Shown here: positions 2,754 to 47,224 of the stretch, piece after piece | Layout: each line of letters starts with the position of its first letter | Position numbering within the stretch: position 1 is the stretch's first letter | From: Brachycybe producta | Lineage: Eukaryota > Arthropoda > Diplopoda > Playtdesmida > Andrognathidae | Length of the DNA: 64,000 nt | Reading direction: 5' to 3' | NCBI GenBank assembly: GCA_036925085.1 | Contig: JAUPFP010000031.1 | Location: forward strand, 2,962,469-3,026,468 | The notes under the pieces: generated by a model | What the model was told of the DNA's origin: nothing | Database searches by the model: none | The model's input: only the letters and a program-made list of their open reading frames with translations | Position numbers and translations under genes: made by a program

Positions 2754-3328
2754 TTACAAATCGAAAGTTGCAATCCGTAGGTTGCAAATCGAAAGTTGCA
2801 ATCCGTAGGTTGCAAATCGAAAGTTGCAATCCGTAGGTTGCAAATCGAAAGTTGCAATCCGTAGGTTGCAAATCGAAAGTTGCAATCCGTAGGTTGCAAA
2901 TCGAAAGTTGCAATCCGTAGGTTGCAAATCGAAAGTTGCAATCCGTAGGTTGCAAATCGAAAGTTGCAATCCGTAGGTTGCAAATCGAAAGTTGCAATCC
3001 GTAGGTTGCAAATCGAAAGTTGCAAATCGAAAGTTGCAAATCGAAAGTTGCAATCCGTAGGTTGCAAATCGAAAGTTGCAATCCGTAGGTTGCAAATCGA
3101 AAGTTGCAATCCGTAGGTTGCAAATCGAAAGTTGCAAATCGAAAGTTGCAAATCGAAAGTTGCAAATCGAAAGTTGCAAATCGAAAGTTGCAAATCGAAA
3201 GTTGCAATCCGTAGGTTGCAAATCGAAAGTTGCAATCCGTAGGTTGCAAATCGAAAGTTGCAATCCGTAGGTTGCAAATCGAAAGTTGCAAATCGGCAAG
3301 TTGCAACTGGAAAAGTTGCAAATCGTCA
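2754..3328. repeat. 14-bp/28-bp tandem satellite
   Basis: Two 14-bp monomers, GTTGCAATCCGTAG and GTTGCAAATCGAAA, alternate to form a 28-bp higher-order unit. In two places (about 3008-3050 and 3120-3205) the second monomer repeats alone. About 40 monomers are present, decaying to variants at the right end. Because 14 is not a multiple of three and the units lack stops, all minus frames stay open. This gives long artefactual open frames. Confidence 0.97.
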
Positions 3329-5645: not shown

Positions 5646-6490
5646 GGCAAGAGTGTTTTTAGAAACTAGAAGAGTAAACGGAGCCACTTAAAAAGATATT
5701 GAAAGCATTTTAGAAACTAGAAGAGTAAATGGGGGCCACTTAAGAAGAAATTGAAAGCGTTTTAGAAACTAGAAGAGTAAACGGGGGTCACTTAAGAAGA
5801 AATTGAAAGCGTTTTAGAAACTAGAAGAGTAAATGGGGGCCACTTAAGAAGAAATTGAAAGCGTTTTAGAAACTAGAAGAGTAAATGGGGGCCACTTAAG
5901 AAGAAATTGAAAGCATTTTAGAAACTAGAAGAGTAAATGGGGGCCACTTAAGAAGAAATTGAAAGCGTTTTAGAAACTAGAAGAGTAAATGGGGGCCACT
6001 TAAGAAGAAATTGAAAGCATTTTAGAAACTAGAAGAGTAAATGGGGGCCACTTAAGAAGAAATTGAAAGCATTTTAGAAACTAGAAGAGTAAATGGGGGC
6101 CACTTAAGAAGAAATTGAAAGCGTTTTAGAAACTAGAAGAGTAAATGGGGGCCACTTAAGAAGAAATTGAAAGCGTTTTAGAAACTAGAAGAGTAAATGG
6201 GGGCCACTTAAGAAGAAATTGAAAGCATTTTAGAAACTAGAAGAGTAAATGGGGGCCACTTAAGAAGAAATTGAAAGCGTTTTAGAAACTAGAAGAGTAA
6301 ACGAGGCCACTTAAGAAGAAATTGAAAGCATTTTAGAAACTAGAAGAGTAAATGGGGGCCACTTAAGAAGAAATTGAAAGCATTTTAGAAACTAGAAGAG
6401 TAAATGGGGGCCACTTAAGAAGAAATTGAAAGCATTTTAGAAACTAGAAGAGTAAATGGGGGTCACTTAAGAAGAAATTGAAAGCATTTT
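5646..6490. repeat. 52-bp satellite derived from a Fold-B arm
   Basis: About sixteen nearly identical 52-bp units of the form GAAAGCRTTTTAGAAACTAG, AAGAGTAAATGGGGGCCACT, TAAGAAGAAATT. The unit is the Fold-B arm from AGAAACTAGAAG to CACTTAAG. The commonest variation is a C-G/C-A toggle in GCGTTTT versus GCATTTT. The last unit runs into a Fold-B core (CTTTCAAAATAAACTTTTTA), showing its source. Confidence 0.96.
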
Positions 6491-6544
6491 AGAAACTAGA
6501 AGGGTTTTCATGTTGATTACTTTCAAAATAAACTTTTTATTATA
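6491..6544. mobile_element. Fold-B core fragment
   Basis: AGAAACTAGAAGGGTTTTCA and TTTCAAAATAAACTTTTTAT continue from the satellite. The opposite arm is missing. Confidence 0.7.
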
Positions 6545-9891: not shown

Positions 9892-10203
9892 TATACGTTG
9901 TACTCACACATGAGTTACAATGAATTCATATTAAATGTGTTTAAGTGAATTATACGGAATCCAGTTAAGGACATGAACACCAAATAAAAATTGACTTTAT
10001 TATTAATATTTTTAATTGAAATTACTAAATCAATATTTTGTCAATAGTTTATATTTTATATTTAAGTATTAACTCAATATTTGCAGATTAATTAACTGAA
10101 TAAATTGAATTCGACATATTGTTTGTTTGTCCTTCACAGGGTTCTGTAGAACACGTTTATTATTTAAATGCATTTAAATTATCAGTTGTGTGTACTAGGT
10201 ATA
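9892..10203 (-). mobile_element. Fold-C MITE
   Basis: Reverse orientation: ATACGTTGTACTCACACATG, ATACGGAATCCAGTTAAGGA, CCTTCACAGGGTTCTGTAGA and a terminus GTGTGTACTAGGTAT. About 310 bp, no coding frame. Confidence 0.88.
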
Positions 10204-10346: not shown

Positions 10347-10605
10347 ATACGTTGTACACATACATGAGTTAAATGAATTCAAATTAAATGTGTTTAGGTG
10401 AATTATACGGAATCCAGTTAAGGACATGATCACCAAATAAAAATTGACTTTATTATTAATATTTTAAATTGAAATACTAAATCAATACTTTGTCAATAGT
10501 TTATATAAATTATATTTAAGTATTAACTCAATATTTTCAAGATTATTAACTGAATAAATTGAATTCGACATATTGTTTGTTTGTCCTTCACAGGGCTCTG
10601 TAGAT
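10347..10605 (-). mobile_element. Fold-C MITE, truncated
   Basis: ATACGTTGTACACATACATG to CCTTCACAGGGCTCTGTAGA. The last about 50 bp, including the terminus, is missing. Confidence 0.85.
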
Positions 10606-13505: not shown

Positions 13506-13880
13506 TTGACTCTCAAGACGTCACACGACACTATATTAACTCTCAAGACATCACCAGACACTATACTAACTCTCAAGACGTCACCAGCCACTATACTAAC
13601 TCTCAAGACGTCACCAGCCACTATACTAACTCTCAAGACGTCATCAGACTCTATATTAACTCTCAAGACGTCATCAGACACTATATTAACTCTCAAGACG
13701 TCATCAGACGCTATATTAACTCTCAAGACGTCATCGGACGCTATATTAACTCTCAATACGTCATCAAACACTATACTAACTCTTAAGACGTCATCGGACG
13801 CTATATTAACTCTCAATACGTCATCAGACACTATACTAACTCTTAAGACGTCATCAGACACTATATTAACTCTCAAGATG
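13506..13880. repeat. 30-bp tandem array 2
   Basis: About twelve units of CTCTCAAGACGTCATCAGAC followed by ACTATATTAA. It shares ACTAACTCTCAAG with array 1, but the other half of the unit is unrelated. The plus frame translates as repeats of LTLKTSSDTI, and both strands are open. I regard these frames as non-genic. Confidence 0.96.
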
Positions 13881-14640
13881 TCAACAACTCTAGTCAGAGG
13901 TTCTTCTCACACTCACACTAAAGACTATCAGGAACTTTTCAAACACTAGACTAGACTGGTCCTGAAGATCACTCTCAACCAACTTTAGACTAACTCTCAG
14001 GATTTTCTATCTCCCTATAACACTGTTTTCAAAAACTAAAGCTCACTATCTGGTGACATCATACAAGCTCTCAAGAGTTTCTCAGACAGTAAAACAAACA
14101 TTTTCAGGCAAAAAAAAAAATATCACAAAGGAGAAATCTCTCAGATAGTTTACTCTCAAGTGTCTTATGAATGATTTTCATCACTTCTCTGAGTCTGGTT
14201 TTTTTTATAAATAATCTTAATCCTATTTATTCCTATATTGGAAAAAAAAGCGAGTCACCTGTTAGTCTATGAAGAGACTAGAAAGATCAATTTCGTTCAT
14301 TCATTCATTCATTCATTCATTCATTCAAAAACAGCACTGTACAACTCTTAACTCAAAACCATCCCCCCCCCTCCATTTTTTTTCTTCTTCTTTCAAAGGA
14401 CCCTCTCCCCTCAGACAATATTAAAGCCCCACTCCAGCCACCCTTAGCTGGCCCTCACCCCCCCCCCCCTAACACACCCCCTTATTTTTATGTGTGTAGT
14501 TCGATAACACGTATTGATCTTTCAAATCGTTTATTATGAAGTTTCTCTTTTCCACCCTCGCTGCTCTCAATTCAAACACAGTACTACACCTTATATTTAA
14601 TATCAAAGACAAGAGATAAAAGTGACCAATAGACTGACCA
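13881..14640. other. Spacer with degenerate 30-bp units and microsatellites
   Basis: Scattered CTCTCAAG words to about 14160, an (ATTC)n run at 14298-14327, then poly-C/poly-T stretches around 14360-14470. No gene is recognised. Confidence 0.45.
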
Positions 14641-20275: not shown

Positions 20276-20411
20276 CAGAAAATCAGACCTTCTCCTCCTT
20301 AGAAATCCACAACCATTTCTTCAAGTATGGACTCTCCACTTTTTAACTCCCTGACTTTTCTTGAAAAGTAAAACTTGTTCAAAATTAAAAATCTCCCCTC
20401 AAACTTTTAAA

Positions 20412-21453
20412 TACGGAGCCCTGCAGAGGACTTATTCAATTTTTTTTATTCCCGACATGTCGACTTTTTTTGAAAACACGGATTTGTCGAATTGAAACTC
20501 AACACGTCGAACTTTCAATCTCGACATGTGGATTTGTCGACTTTGAAACTCGACATGTCGACTTTTTCGACACGTCGACTTTCAATCTCGACACGTTGAC
20601 TTTTTAAACCTCGACACGTCGAACTTTCAATCTAGACACGTCGACTTTCAAACTCGATTTGTTGACCTTCAATCTCGACGCGTCGACCTTCAATCTCGAC
20701 GCGTCGACCTTCAATCTCGACGCGTCGACCTTCAACCTCGACGCGTCGACTTTCAACCTCGACGCGTCGACTTTCAACCTCGACGCGTCGACTTTCAACC
20801 TCGACGCGTCGACTTTCAACCTCGACGCGTCGACTTTCAACCTCGACGCGTCGACTTTCAACCTCGACGCGTCGACTTTCAACCTCGACGCGTCGACTTT
20901 CAATCTCGACGCGTCGACTTTCAATCTCGACGCGTCGACTTTCAATCTCGACACGTCGACTTTCAACCTCGACGCGTCGACTTTCAACCTCGACGCGTCG
21001 ACCTTCAACCTCGACGCGTCGACCTTCAATCTCGACGCGTCGACCTTCAATCTCGACGCGTCGACTTTCAACCTCGACGCGTCGACTTTCAATCTCGACG
21101 CGTCGACTTTCAACCTCGACACGTCGACTTTCAATCTCGACGCGTCGACTTTCAACCTCGACGCGTCGACTTTCAATCTCGACGCATCGACTTTCAACCT
21201 CTACACGTCGACTTTCAACCTCGACACGTCGACTTTCAATCTCGACGTGCCGACTTTCAATCTCGACACTTCGACTTTCAATCTCGACACGTCGACTTTC
21301 AACCTCGACACGTCAACTTTCAATCTCGTTGCGTTGCAAGAATTATGGTGCGCGCAACATGACATAATTAACATTGGCTGAATAAAAGTGATTAAAAGTC
21401 GACCTGTCAAGAATAAAAAAAAAATTGCAAAAAGTCCTCTGCAGGACTCCGTA
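20412..21453. mobile_element. Fold-H element with 21-bp CpG-rich satellite core
   Basis: The ends are inverted repeats TACGGAGCCCTGCAGAGGAC and GTCCTCTGCAGGACTCCGTA (one mismatch), flanked by TTAAA at 20407-20411 and 21454-21458. The interior is a TCGAC-rich array, then a tail with GGTGCGCGCAACATGACATA and GGCTGAATAAAAGTGATTAA that is shared with Fold-H at 46.5 kb. The element is 1042 bp long and encodes no recognisable protein. Confidence 0.92.
20455..21330. repeat. 21-bp tandem array (TCGACGCGTCGACTTTCAACC)n
   Basis: About thirty well-ordered 21-bp units preceded by degenerate ones. Each unit has the 12-bp palindrome TCGACGCGTCGA with overlapping SalI-type and MluI-type hexamers and four CpGs. 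CGACGC versus CGACAC, and CAACC versus CAATC, are the common variants. Both strands are open (SDASTFN-type and RLKVDAS-type heptads) because 21 is a multiple of three. Confidence 0.97.
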
Positions 21454-21667
21454 TTAAAACCCTCGCCGCCCCCTTTTTTTTTTTTCTAAAACTGGACTTC
21501 TCCTTCCCCCCCCCCTTTTTTTTGTAAAATAAATTTGACAGACAACAACAAGAAGAAGACTGGAAAGGAAAAAAAAAAAAACCTCAACGAATGACGTCAT
21601 TGAAGAACGTATTTCATTTAAAATTCATTCTAGTATCAAGAGTTAAGTTTCTCACAGCCTCTTTTTT
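21454..21667. other. Unassigned spacer
   Basis: Poly-T, poly-C and poly-A runs and an ATGACGTCAT word at 21592-21601. No gene is seen. Confidence 0.35.
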
Positions 21668-21975
21668 ATACCTTCGACACACATACACATTTAAATGCAT
21701 TTAAATATTACACATGTTCTACAGAGCCCTGTGAAGGGCAAACGGACAATATGTCGCATTCAATTTATTCAGTTAATTAATCTGAAAATATTGAGTTAAT
21801 ACTTAAATATAATATTATAAACATATTGACAAAATATTGATTTAGTATTTCAATTTAAAATATTAATAATAAAGTCAATTTTTATTTGGTGTTTATGTCC
21901 TTAACTGGATTCCGTATAATTCACCCTAAACACATTTAATTTGAATTCATTTAACTCATGTGTGAGTACAAGGTA
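21668..21975 (+). mobile_element. Fold-C MITE, first of a head-to-tail pair
   Basis: ATACCTTCGACACACATACA to GAGTACAAGGTAT with the family interior (CAGAGCCCTGTGAAGGGCAA, TTAACTGGATTCCGTATAAT). Confidence 0.9.
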
Positions 21976-21977
21976 TA

Positions 21978-22283
21978 ATACCTAGTACCCACACCTGATA
22001 ATTTAAATGCATTTAAATAATAAACGTGTTCTACAGAGCCCTGTGAAGGACAAACAAACAATACGTCGCATTCAATTTATTCAGTTAATTAATCTGAAAA
22101 TATTGAGTTAATACTTAAATATAAAATATATAAACTATTGACAAAATAATGATTTAGTATTTTCAATTTAAAATATTAATAATGAAGTCAATTTTTATTT
22201 GGTTCTTGTCCTTAACTGGATTCCGTATAATTCACCTAAACACATTTAATTTGAATTCATTTAACTCATTTGTGTATGCAATG
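21978..22283 (+). mobile_element. Fold-C MITE, second of a head-to-tail pair
   Basis: It starts directly after the previous copy (junction GGTATAATACC) and carries the same interior. The right terminus is degraded (TGTGTATGCAATG). Confidence 0.88.
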
Positions 22284-27514: not shown

Positions 27515-28320
27515 TTATGTATCTCATACTATCTTTATTTTGTATCTCAATCTATGTTTTTTCACAATTTGTAAACTCATTCTATCTCTTTTGTAATTTG
27601 TATCCCATTCCACCTTTTTATTCTGTCTCATTTTATCTTTTTGTATTCTGTATCTCATTCTATATCATTTCATAATCTATCTCATATTTTTTATATTCTG
27701 TATCTCATTCTATCTCTTTATATTCTGTATCTCATTCTATCTTTATATTCTGTATCTCATTCTATCTTTATATTCTGTATCTCATTCTATCTTTATATTC
27801 TGTATCTCATTCTATCTCTTTATACTCTGTATCTCATTCTATCTCTTTATACTCTGTATTTCATTCTATCTCTTTATATTCTGTATCTCATTCTATCTTT
27901 ATATTCTGTATCTCATTCTATCTCTTTATATTATGTATCTCATTCTATCTTTATATTCTGTATCTCATTATATCTCTTTATATTCTGTATCTCATTCTAT
28001 CTCTTTATATTCTGTATCTCATTCTATCTCTTTTCATAATTATCTCAGTCTATCTCTTTTCATAATTATATCATTCTATCGCTTTTCATAATTTGTATTT
28101 CATTTATCCCTTATATTCTGTATCTCATTCTATATATTTTCACAATTTGTAAACTCATTCTATATATTTTCCTAATTTGTATCTCATTCTATCTTTTTTG
28201 TATTCTGTATCTCAGCCTATAAACATGTGTTTTGTATTTCATTCTCTCTTTTGGCAATCTGTATCTCATTCTATATTTTTTTGTAATTTGTATCTCCGTT
28301 TGTATTTCTGTATCATTCCT
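27515..28320. repeat. Pyrimidine-rich satellite (CTGTATCTCATTCTATCTTT)n
   Basis: About thirty units of 20-25 bp of the form TTTATATTCTGTATCTCATT plus CTATC. They are tightest at 27690-28020 and degenerate on either side. The plus frame is open and translates to Ile/Leu/Tyr/Ser-rich sequence, an artefact of composition. Confidence 0.95.
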
Positions 28321-40248: not shown

Positions 40249-40549
40249 ATACTTTGTATACACCTGAGATAAATGATTTTCAAATTAAATGTGTTTAGGT
40301 GAATCATACGGAATCCAGTTAAGGACACATGAACCAAATATAAATTGACTTTATTATTAATATTTTAAATTGAAATACTAAATCAATATTTTGTCAATAG
40401 TTTATATATTTAAGTATTAATCTTAATATTTTCAGATTATTAACTGAATATATTTAATTCGGCATATTGTTCGTTTGTACTTCACGGGGTTCTGTAGAAC
40501 ACGTTTATTATTTAAAATGCAGTTAAATTATCAAGTGGGAACTAGGTAT
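40249..40549 (-). mobile_element. Fold-C MITE, first of a head-to-tail pair
   Basis: ATACTTTGTATACACCTGAG to GGGAACTAGGTAT, with ATACGGAATCCAGTTAAGGA and TTCACGGGGTTCTGTAGAAC inside. Confidence 0.88.
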
Positions 40550-40550
40550 T

Positions 40551-40855
40551 ATACCTTGTACACACATGAGTTAAATGAATTCAAATTGAATGTGTTTAGG
40601 TGAATTATACGGAATCCAGTTAAGGACATACAAACCAAATAAAAATTGACTTTAATTATTAATATTTTAAATTGAAATACTAAATCAATATTTTGTGTCA
40701 ATAGTTTATATATTTAAGTATTAATCTCAATATTTTCAGATTAACTGAATTAAATTGAATTCGACATATTGTTTGTGTGTCCTTCACAGGGCTCTGTAGA
40801 ACACATTTATTTTTTAAATGCATTTAAATTATCAGGTGTGTGTACTACGTAATAC
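40551..40855 (-). mobile_element. Fold-C MITE, second of a head-to-tail pair
   Basis: ATACCTTGTACACACATGAG to GTGTGTACTACGTAAT. The junction with its partner is GGTATTATACC, like the pair at 21.97 kb. Confidence 0.9.
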
Positions 40856-46542: not shown

Positions 46543-47051
46543 CTACGGAGCCCTGTAAAAGATAGGCGAGATTTTTTTTTAAATCTCGACATTTCGACTT
46601 TAATCTCGACATTTCGACTTTAAATCTCGGCATGTCGACTTTTAATCTCGACATTTCGACTTTTAATCTCCACATTTCGACTTTAATCTCGACATTTCGA
46701 CTTTTAATCTCGGCATTTCGACTTTTAATCTCGGCATTTCGACTTTTAATCTCGACATGTCGACTTTTAATCTCGACATGTCGACTTTTAATCTCGACAT
46801 GTCGACTTTTAATCTCGACATTTCGACTTTTAATCTCTTTTATTCGGTCATGTTAATTATGCCATGTTGTGCGCACCATACTCTAATAATTAAATTATTG
46901 CTGCTACAAGAGGGCGCTTGCAATAATTTAATTATTAAAGTATGGTACGCACAACATGGCATAATTAACATGACCGAATAAAAGAGATTAAAAGTCGAAA
47001 TGTCGAGATTTAAAAAAAAAAGATCTCGCATGTCCTTTACATGGCTCCGTA
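46543..47051. mobile_element. Fold-H element with 21-bp satellite and palindromic tail
   Basis: Ends TACGGAGCCCTGTAAAAGAT and GTCCTTTACATGGCTCCGTA are flanked by GGAACC at 46537-46542 and 47052-47057 (exact 6-bp duplication). Inside lie 21-bp units and a 130-bp palindrome (GTCATGTTAATTATGCCATG, GCGCACCATACTCTAATAAT and complements), and ATTCGGTCATG/CATGACCGAATAAAAGAG closes the inner arms. 509 bp. Confidence 0.93.
46575..46840. repeat. 21-bp tandem array (TCGACATTTCGACTTTTAATC)n
   Basis: Twelve to thirteen units of TCGACATTTCGACTTTTAAT+C, with TCGACATGTCGAC and TCGGCATTTCGAC variants. It corresponds base for base to the 20.5-kb array except for the centre (ACGCG versus ACATT/ACATG) and the TTCAACC/TTTAATC half. 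Confidence 0.95.
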
Positions 47052-47224
47052 GGAACCAGAAAACAATTGGCCAACATCCAAATTAGCTTATAGCCTAAAT
47101 TATAATCGCCTAAATTATAATAGCTTAAATAATAATATAAATATCGACAATCTTCTTCTCGCTCTGAAAAATGAGGTTTGGATGTCCTGACACAAATATA
47201 ATATGAACCTAGTTCATTTTAAAC
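47052..47224. other. Unassigned spacer
   Basis: (ATAATAGCCTAAATT)-type triplication at 47085-47130, otherwise AT-rich. Confidence 0.4.

Follow-up and report, generated by a model that had tools for sequence, protein, structure and literature searches.

A foldback element family with IS3EU-type ends and expanding palindrome arrays in Brachycybe producta

Results

The window, a 64,000-nucleotide stretch of Brachycybe producta DNA, contains two copies of a real, numerous and mobile element family in which a short tandem unit is integral and expanding. We consider it likely that the copies are non-autonomous foldback MITEs with IS3EU-type ends, moved by an IS3EU transposase acting in trans, and that their palindrome arrays expand copy by copy.

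Two elements in the window

Element 1 is a complete non-autonomous DNA transposon at window positions 20412-21453. Its features, and those of element 2, are as follows.

20406..20411, no strand: left target-site duplication of element 1, TTTAAA (TTAAA exact)
20412..20433, plus strand: left terminal inverted repeat of element 1, 22 bp, TACGGAGCCCTGCAGAGGACTT
20452..20463, plus strand: first subterminal palindrome in the left arm of element 1, CCGACATGTCGA, read from the sequence
20567..21328, plus strand: expanded 21-bp array of element 1, consensus TCGACGCGTCGACTTTCAACC
21329..21398, minus strand: inner part of the right arm of element 1, with the CATAATTAA core common to other copies; limits approximate
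21399..21410, minus strand: single subterminal palindrome in the unexpanded right arm of element 1, TCGACCTGTCAA, read from the sequence
21432..21453, minus strand: right terminal inverted repeat of element 1, one mismatch to the left end
21454..21459, no strand: right target-site duplication of element 1, TTAAAA
46538..46543, no strand: left target-site duplication of element 2, GGAACC
46544..47051, plus strand: element 2, with a left-arm array (46578-46837), the core, and a right arm with one unit (46995-47006)
47052..47057, no strand: right target-site duplication of element 2, GGAACC

A first-pass annotation of this DNA had described 22-bp inverted ends with one mismatch and a TTAAA duplication enclosing an array of 21-bp units, and all of this was borne out. 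The left end, TACGGAGCCCTGCAGAGGACTT, starts at 20412 and its inverse, with one mismatch, ends at 21453. TTAAA flanks the element exactly at 20407-20411 and 21454-21458; at the 6 bp typical of the family, the duplication reads TTTAAA/TTAAAA and is identical at 5/6 positions. TRF reports 36.1 copies of the 21-bp unit at 20567-21328. The end 20-mer has three matches in the window at up to three mismatches, one of them in element 2, compared with a mean of 0.00 in 100 shuffled windows. An Rfam search of the window gave no match.

The array had also been described as holding about four CpGs per unit in a CpG-poor neighborhood. A CGCG centre, and with it four CpGs, is present in 22 of the 43 palindromes of element 1; the mean is 3.2 CpGs per 12-mer (42 loosely matched units). 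The CpG observed/expected ratio is 2.46 in element 1 and 0.74 in the window without both elements, so the neighborhood is only mildly CpG-poor. Element 2, reported as a second copy at 46.5 kb, is indeed a family member with an array and is flanked by a perfect 6-bp duplication, GGAACC. However, it is not CpG-dense, and its 13 palindromes have mostly CATT or CATG centres.

Family size and target-site duplications

We searched the genome (295 Mb, 442 contigs) with a degenerate 20-bp end, TAYGGAGCCCTGYARAGGAC, and obtained 914 exact matches (467 + 447) compared with 0 for the reversed control. The same genome has 33 matches to PF00379, a cuticle family characteristic of arthropods. Allowing up to three mismatches yielded 8,091 matches against 14 in the control, a number that, by our own mismatch count, also takes in the ends of a second repeat family. 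A non-random sample of 38 loci was retrieved using the left end of element 1 and is therefore biased to that end type. From these loci and the window we paired ends into 32 elements, 87 to 1,310 bp long; the set includes one odd pair of 87 bp (L043) and one of poor quality (L009). Twelve ends remained unpaired and stand outside all pair counts; ten of them read as truncated or mutated copies.

Flank identity across the 32 pairs was 0.719 at 6 bp, compared with 0.219-0.400 at 2-5 and 7-12 bp. The two flanks matched at 6/6 positions in 7 elements, 5/6 in 12, 4/6 in 6, 3/6 in 1, 2/6 in 3, and 1/6 in 3; we count the 7/32 pairs that match at three positions or fewer against our best explanation. 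An earlier, stricter end filter gave 28 pairs with an identity of 0.69 at 6 bp, and we used the 32-pair set because ends such as TACAGAGCCCTGTAAAGGAC were lost under the stricter filter. The duplications are varied in sequence (GGAACC, ACAATT, AAATGG, GGTACT). Because they are 6 bp long and varied, we ruled out piggyBac or another TTAA-target element.

Foldback architecture and the subterminal palindrome

When folded as single strands, two copies formed near-complete hairpins (z -27.74 and -27.18), and we therefore describe the family as a foldback MITE. As in foldback or long-TIR elements, the arms are inverted over most of the element (two copies folded) and contain variable tandem repeats (32 copies). 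In its basic form, about 300-330 bp long, the element consists of inverted ends, the subterminal palindrome TCGACATGTCGA, and a long inverted core; 14 of the 34 measured elements, two of which have hand-set bounds, are at most 340 bp long.

TCGA-N4-TCGA with at most one mismatch was found within the first 112 bp of 61/64 ends, compared with 1/64 control flank stretches of equal length, and starts at a median of 42 bp from the tip (quartiles 41-45). Exact matches were present in 45/64 ends and 0 of 64 control flanks; with up to two mismatches, the counts were 63/64 and 12/64. The unit is inverted in orientation between the two arms of most copies. The earlier proposal that the array is an integral, expanding part of a mobile element is supported. 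Ends without the array had been named as an observation that would speak against it. This is half borne out: ends with few units are common, but 61 of the 64 ends have at least one unit, and ends with none are rare.

We then compared variation among parts of the unit in 17 in-register runs, which were phased on intact palindromes (at least two required) and thus lean somewhat to arrays with good palindromes. Of the 15 arrays that stayed in phase, 14 showed less variation in the outer half-sites than in the linkers (sign test 0.001), a set that leaves out the drifted element 2 and L035; with these two drifted runs added, the count was 14/17. When one array was taken per element, the outer half-sites were less variable in 10/10. 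Variation pooled over all 17 runs was 0.092 in the outer half-sites, 0.134 in the centre, and 0.119 in the linker. The outer half-sites contain CpGs, and methylated CpGs at these positions would be expected to raise variation. Due to its nearly fixed position and the low variation of its half-sites, the palindrome is best read as a putative protein-binding site, and its binder would probably be the transposase.

Array expansion and copy-specific variants

The 32 copies carry 1 to 45 palindromes at up to two mismatches, spaced mostly 20, 21 or 26 bp apart, with arrays in one arm or both; the longest arrays reach about 50 units. In 15 of the 17 copies with at least six units, the units resembled each other more than they resembled those of other copies (mean difference of 0.188 within and 0.243 between copies), indicating that arrays grew largely copy by copy.

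The usual palindrome centre in the family is CATG. A dimer of the CGCG unit has 37 genome matches at up to three mismatches, 27 of them in element 1 and the remaining 10 at C152 (7), C3 (2), and C4 (1). This unit is nearly private to element 1, and we rejected the CpG-dense satellite as a signature of the family, contrary to the first-pass annotation. Of the four copies richest in units, GC-rich centres dominate L025 (36 units), element 1 (42), and L031 (51), but not L039 (48). Centre composition and unit number gave a Spearman coefficient of 0.49 (34 elements, relatedness uncorrected). We infer that, in some of the longest arrays, GC-biased exchange gave rise to the CpG-rich variants, and we count against our best explanation that the long arrays L039 and L018 are not GC-rich.

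The array at L031:1707-3026 is very long and GC-rich, with about 50 units and a 38-bp higher-order organisation. Its unit is a different one, mostly TCGCCGTGTCGG, and has lost the intact palindrome over much of the array, which we also count against our best explanation. Since this array became long with a unit mostly without a clean palindrome, expansion itself does not need the palindrome.

Three arrays in the fetched loci lie outside paired elements. At L024 the array continues into the remnant of an end at the locus edge. The L031 array has a family end on one side, with none recognised on the other. The L023 array is part of a core that follows an unpaired end, its outer side having no recognisable end. 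Long blocks without ends, the other observation named as contrary, were not seen where flanks were read, at a minority of the listed array places, although these last two arrays lack a recognisable outer-side end. Dimer searches revealed no kb-scale block among the matches listed (for one search, the first 100 of 583 places), and the longest cluster among the matches listed spans about 760 bp, at C4.

Superfamily assignment and search for an autonomous partner

IS3EU elements are described as having TA..TA termini with a usually 6-bp target-site duplication (PMC10045372) and TAYGG..CCRTA termini with a 6-bp duplication (PMC12730594). The family ends, TACGGAG or TATGGAG, fit TAYGG..CCRTA, and the 32 pairs have the 6-bp duplication. 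Because these ends and duplications constitute the structural signature of IS3EU, we regard the family as a probable member of this superfamily, by structure only. This offers an answer, on structure, to the first-pass annotation, which had not recognised the family: ends and duplication length match IS3EU. The copies examined here differ in carrying no transposase gene, and foldback arms with palindrome arrays are a feature of the family that the available text of PMC10045372 and PMC12730594 does not mention for IS3EU. Among the papers listed by literature searches on IS3EU, foldback and subterminal palindromic elements and MITEs, no title or abstract opening described such a palindrome-array foldback IS3EU element, which leaves its absence unproven.

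An IS481 profile and a weak search with one 73-aa motif query found no autonomous IS3EU partner, which we count against our best explanation. The profile gave 50 scored matches, of which 49 lie in open frames of 1,467 aa or more; the match in the shortest frame (L047) reads to us as a retrotransposon polyprotein. The motif query led to integrase-like genes at C12, C5, C7, and C24 (E 3.1e-22 to 1.8e-9; loci L048-L051, with L053 covering the C5 place over a greater length), below which came many weaker, retrotransposon-like matches (E 1.9e-6 and worse). A match at C17 (L052) looks like a retrotransposon integrase. The genes at L048, L049, L050, and L051 resemble IS3EU/KRBA2-type proteins. We recognised no family end in the DNA examined at L048-L051 and L053 (only 3.2 kb at L048). 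From reading of the translations, catalytic residues seem lost in the C12, C7, and C24 genes, and the C5 gene may keep all three. Pfam returned only sub-threshold rve and C1 matches for P0001 and none for P0002. The genes at L048-L051 are possibly domesticated. Across the genome, many integrase matches each fall within one open frame of about 2,170 or 2,570 aa, and these are probably recently active retrotransposons.

Proposed explanation and alternatives

We propose that an IS3EU transposase supplied in trans moves these elements or formerly did so. Located about 42 bp in from either tip, the palindrome TCGACATGTCGA would serve as a secondary binding site, with this transposase the most likely binder. 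Since it lies within a foldback arm, the unit could be duplicated by slippage, unequal exchange or gap repair following excision, and each copy would then grow and homogenise its own array. A more specific version, in which the palindrome is the IS3EU transposase's secondary site, copies evolve by changing its dose, array length tunes recruitment or else titrates and inhibits the transposase, and GC-biased exchange from CATG to CGCG in some of the longest arrays creates CpG islands de novo, several times independently, strikes us as rather unlikely.

The palindrome might instead have no binding role, with arrays arising by neutral replication slippage at hairpin-forming DNA and palindromes persisting because they fold. 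Both tested copies do fold into hairpins, the unit length drifts between 20, 21 and 26 bp, and the L031 array reached about 50 units with mostly TCGCCGTGTCGG and no clean palindrome. Against this stand the palindrome's nearly fixed distance from the tip and outer half-sites that are steadier than linkers in 14/15 in-phase arrays despite their CpGs, and we regard neutral slippage as possible but doubtful. That a MITE captured a pre-existing satellite, the origin proposed for Xenopus miDNA4 (review PMC12628747), appears improbable here: the unit lies near the tip in 61/64 ends, is inverted between the arms of most copies, and forms no kb-scale block among the matches listed (100 of 583 places in one dimer search). 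The CpG ratio of 2.46 in element 1 could suggest that the host retains the array as a functional CpG island or regulatory sequence, but the CGCG unit is almost confined to a single copy and centres in most copies are mainly CATG, leaving us to give this reading very little credence.

Comparison with known elements

Foldback or long-arm elements with internal repeats are already known, and the family joins a known kind of element (Tetris, Galileo, miDNA4). The foldback element Tetris of Drosophila virilis has repeats of about 220 bp and also forms kb-size satellite-like arrays, and its authors proposed for these repeats a binding or dose logic as in Galileo and piggyBat (PMC4079207). In contrast, the family described here has palindrome-based units of 20-26 bp, with no kb-scale free array among the matches listed. 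Galileo shares the long arms with internal tandem repeats; it belongs to the P superfamily and is described with three binding sites, the THAP domain of its transposase binding sites in the arm repeats (PMC3688188), whereas the binder in our family is only putative. An extra internal site restrains the activity of piggyBat (PMC11707139). Expandable internal arrays are likewise found in miDNA4, Xstir, and the clam tandem-repeat MITEs, although miDNA4 differs as a Tc1/mariner element with a proposed satellite capture (PMC12628747, PMC9659126).

With this family, the combination of foldback arms and arrays is extended to an element whose ends are of the IS3EU type. Its many copies with graded array lengths could be used to test whether multiple subterminal sites favour or limit transposition. 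It also shows how a transposable element can give rise to short CpG-rich minisatellites within itself.

Other repeats in the window

A second interspersed repeat, estimated at about 300 bp, occurs at window positions 9953-10148, 10406-10602, 21720-21916, 22032-22227, and 40307-40798. Its interior contains TACGGAATCCAGTTAAGGAC and TACAGAGCCCTGTGAAGGAC motifs that resemble IS3EU ends; these motifs do not mark its outer limits, since conservation continues for about 40-50 bp past them. Many unrelated tandem arrays are also present in the window (61 TRF rows, some overlapping), including those at 2757-3306, 5657-6502, 13509-13883, and 27518-28214.
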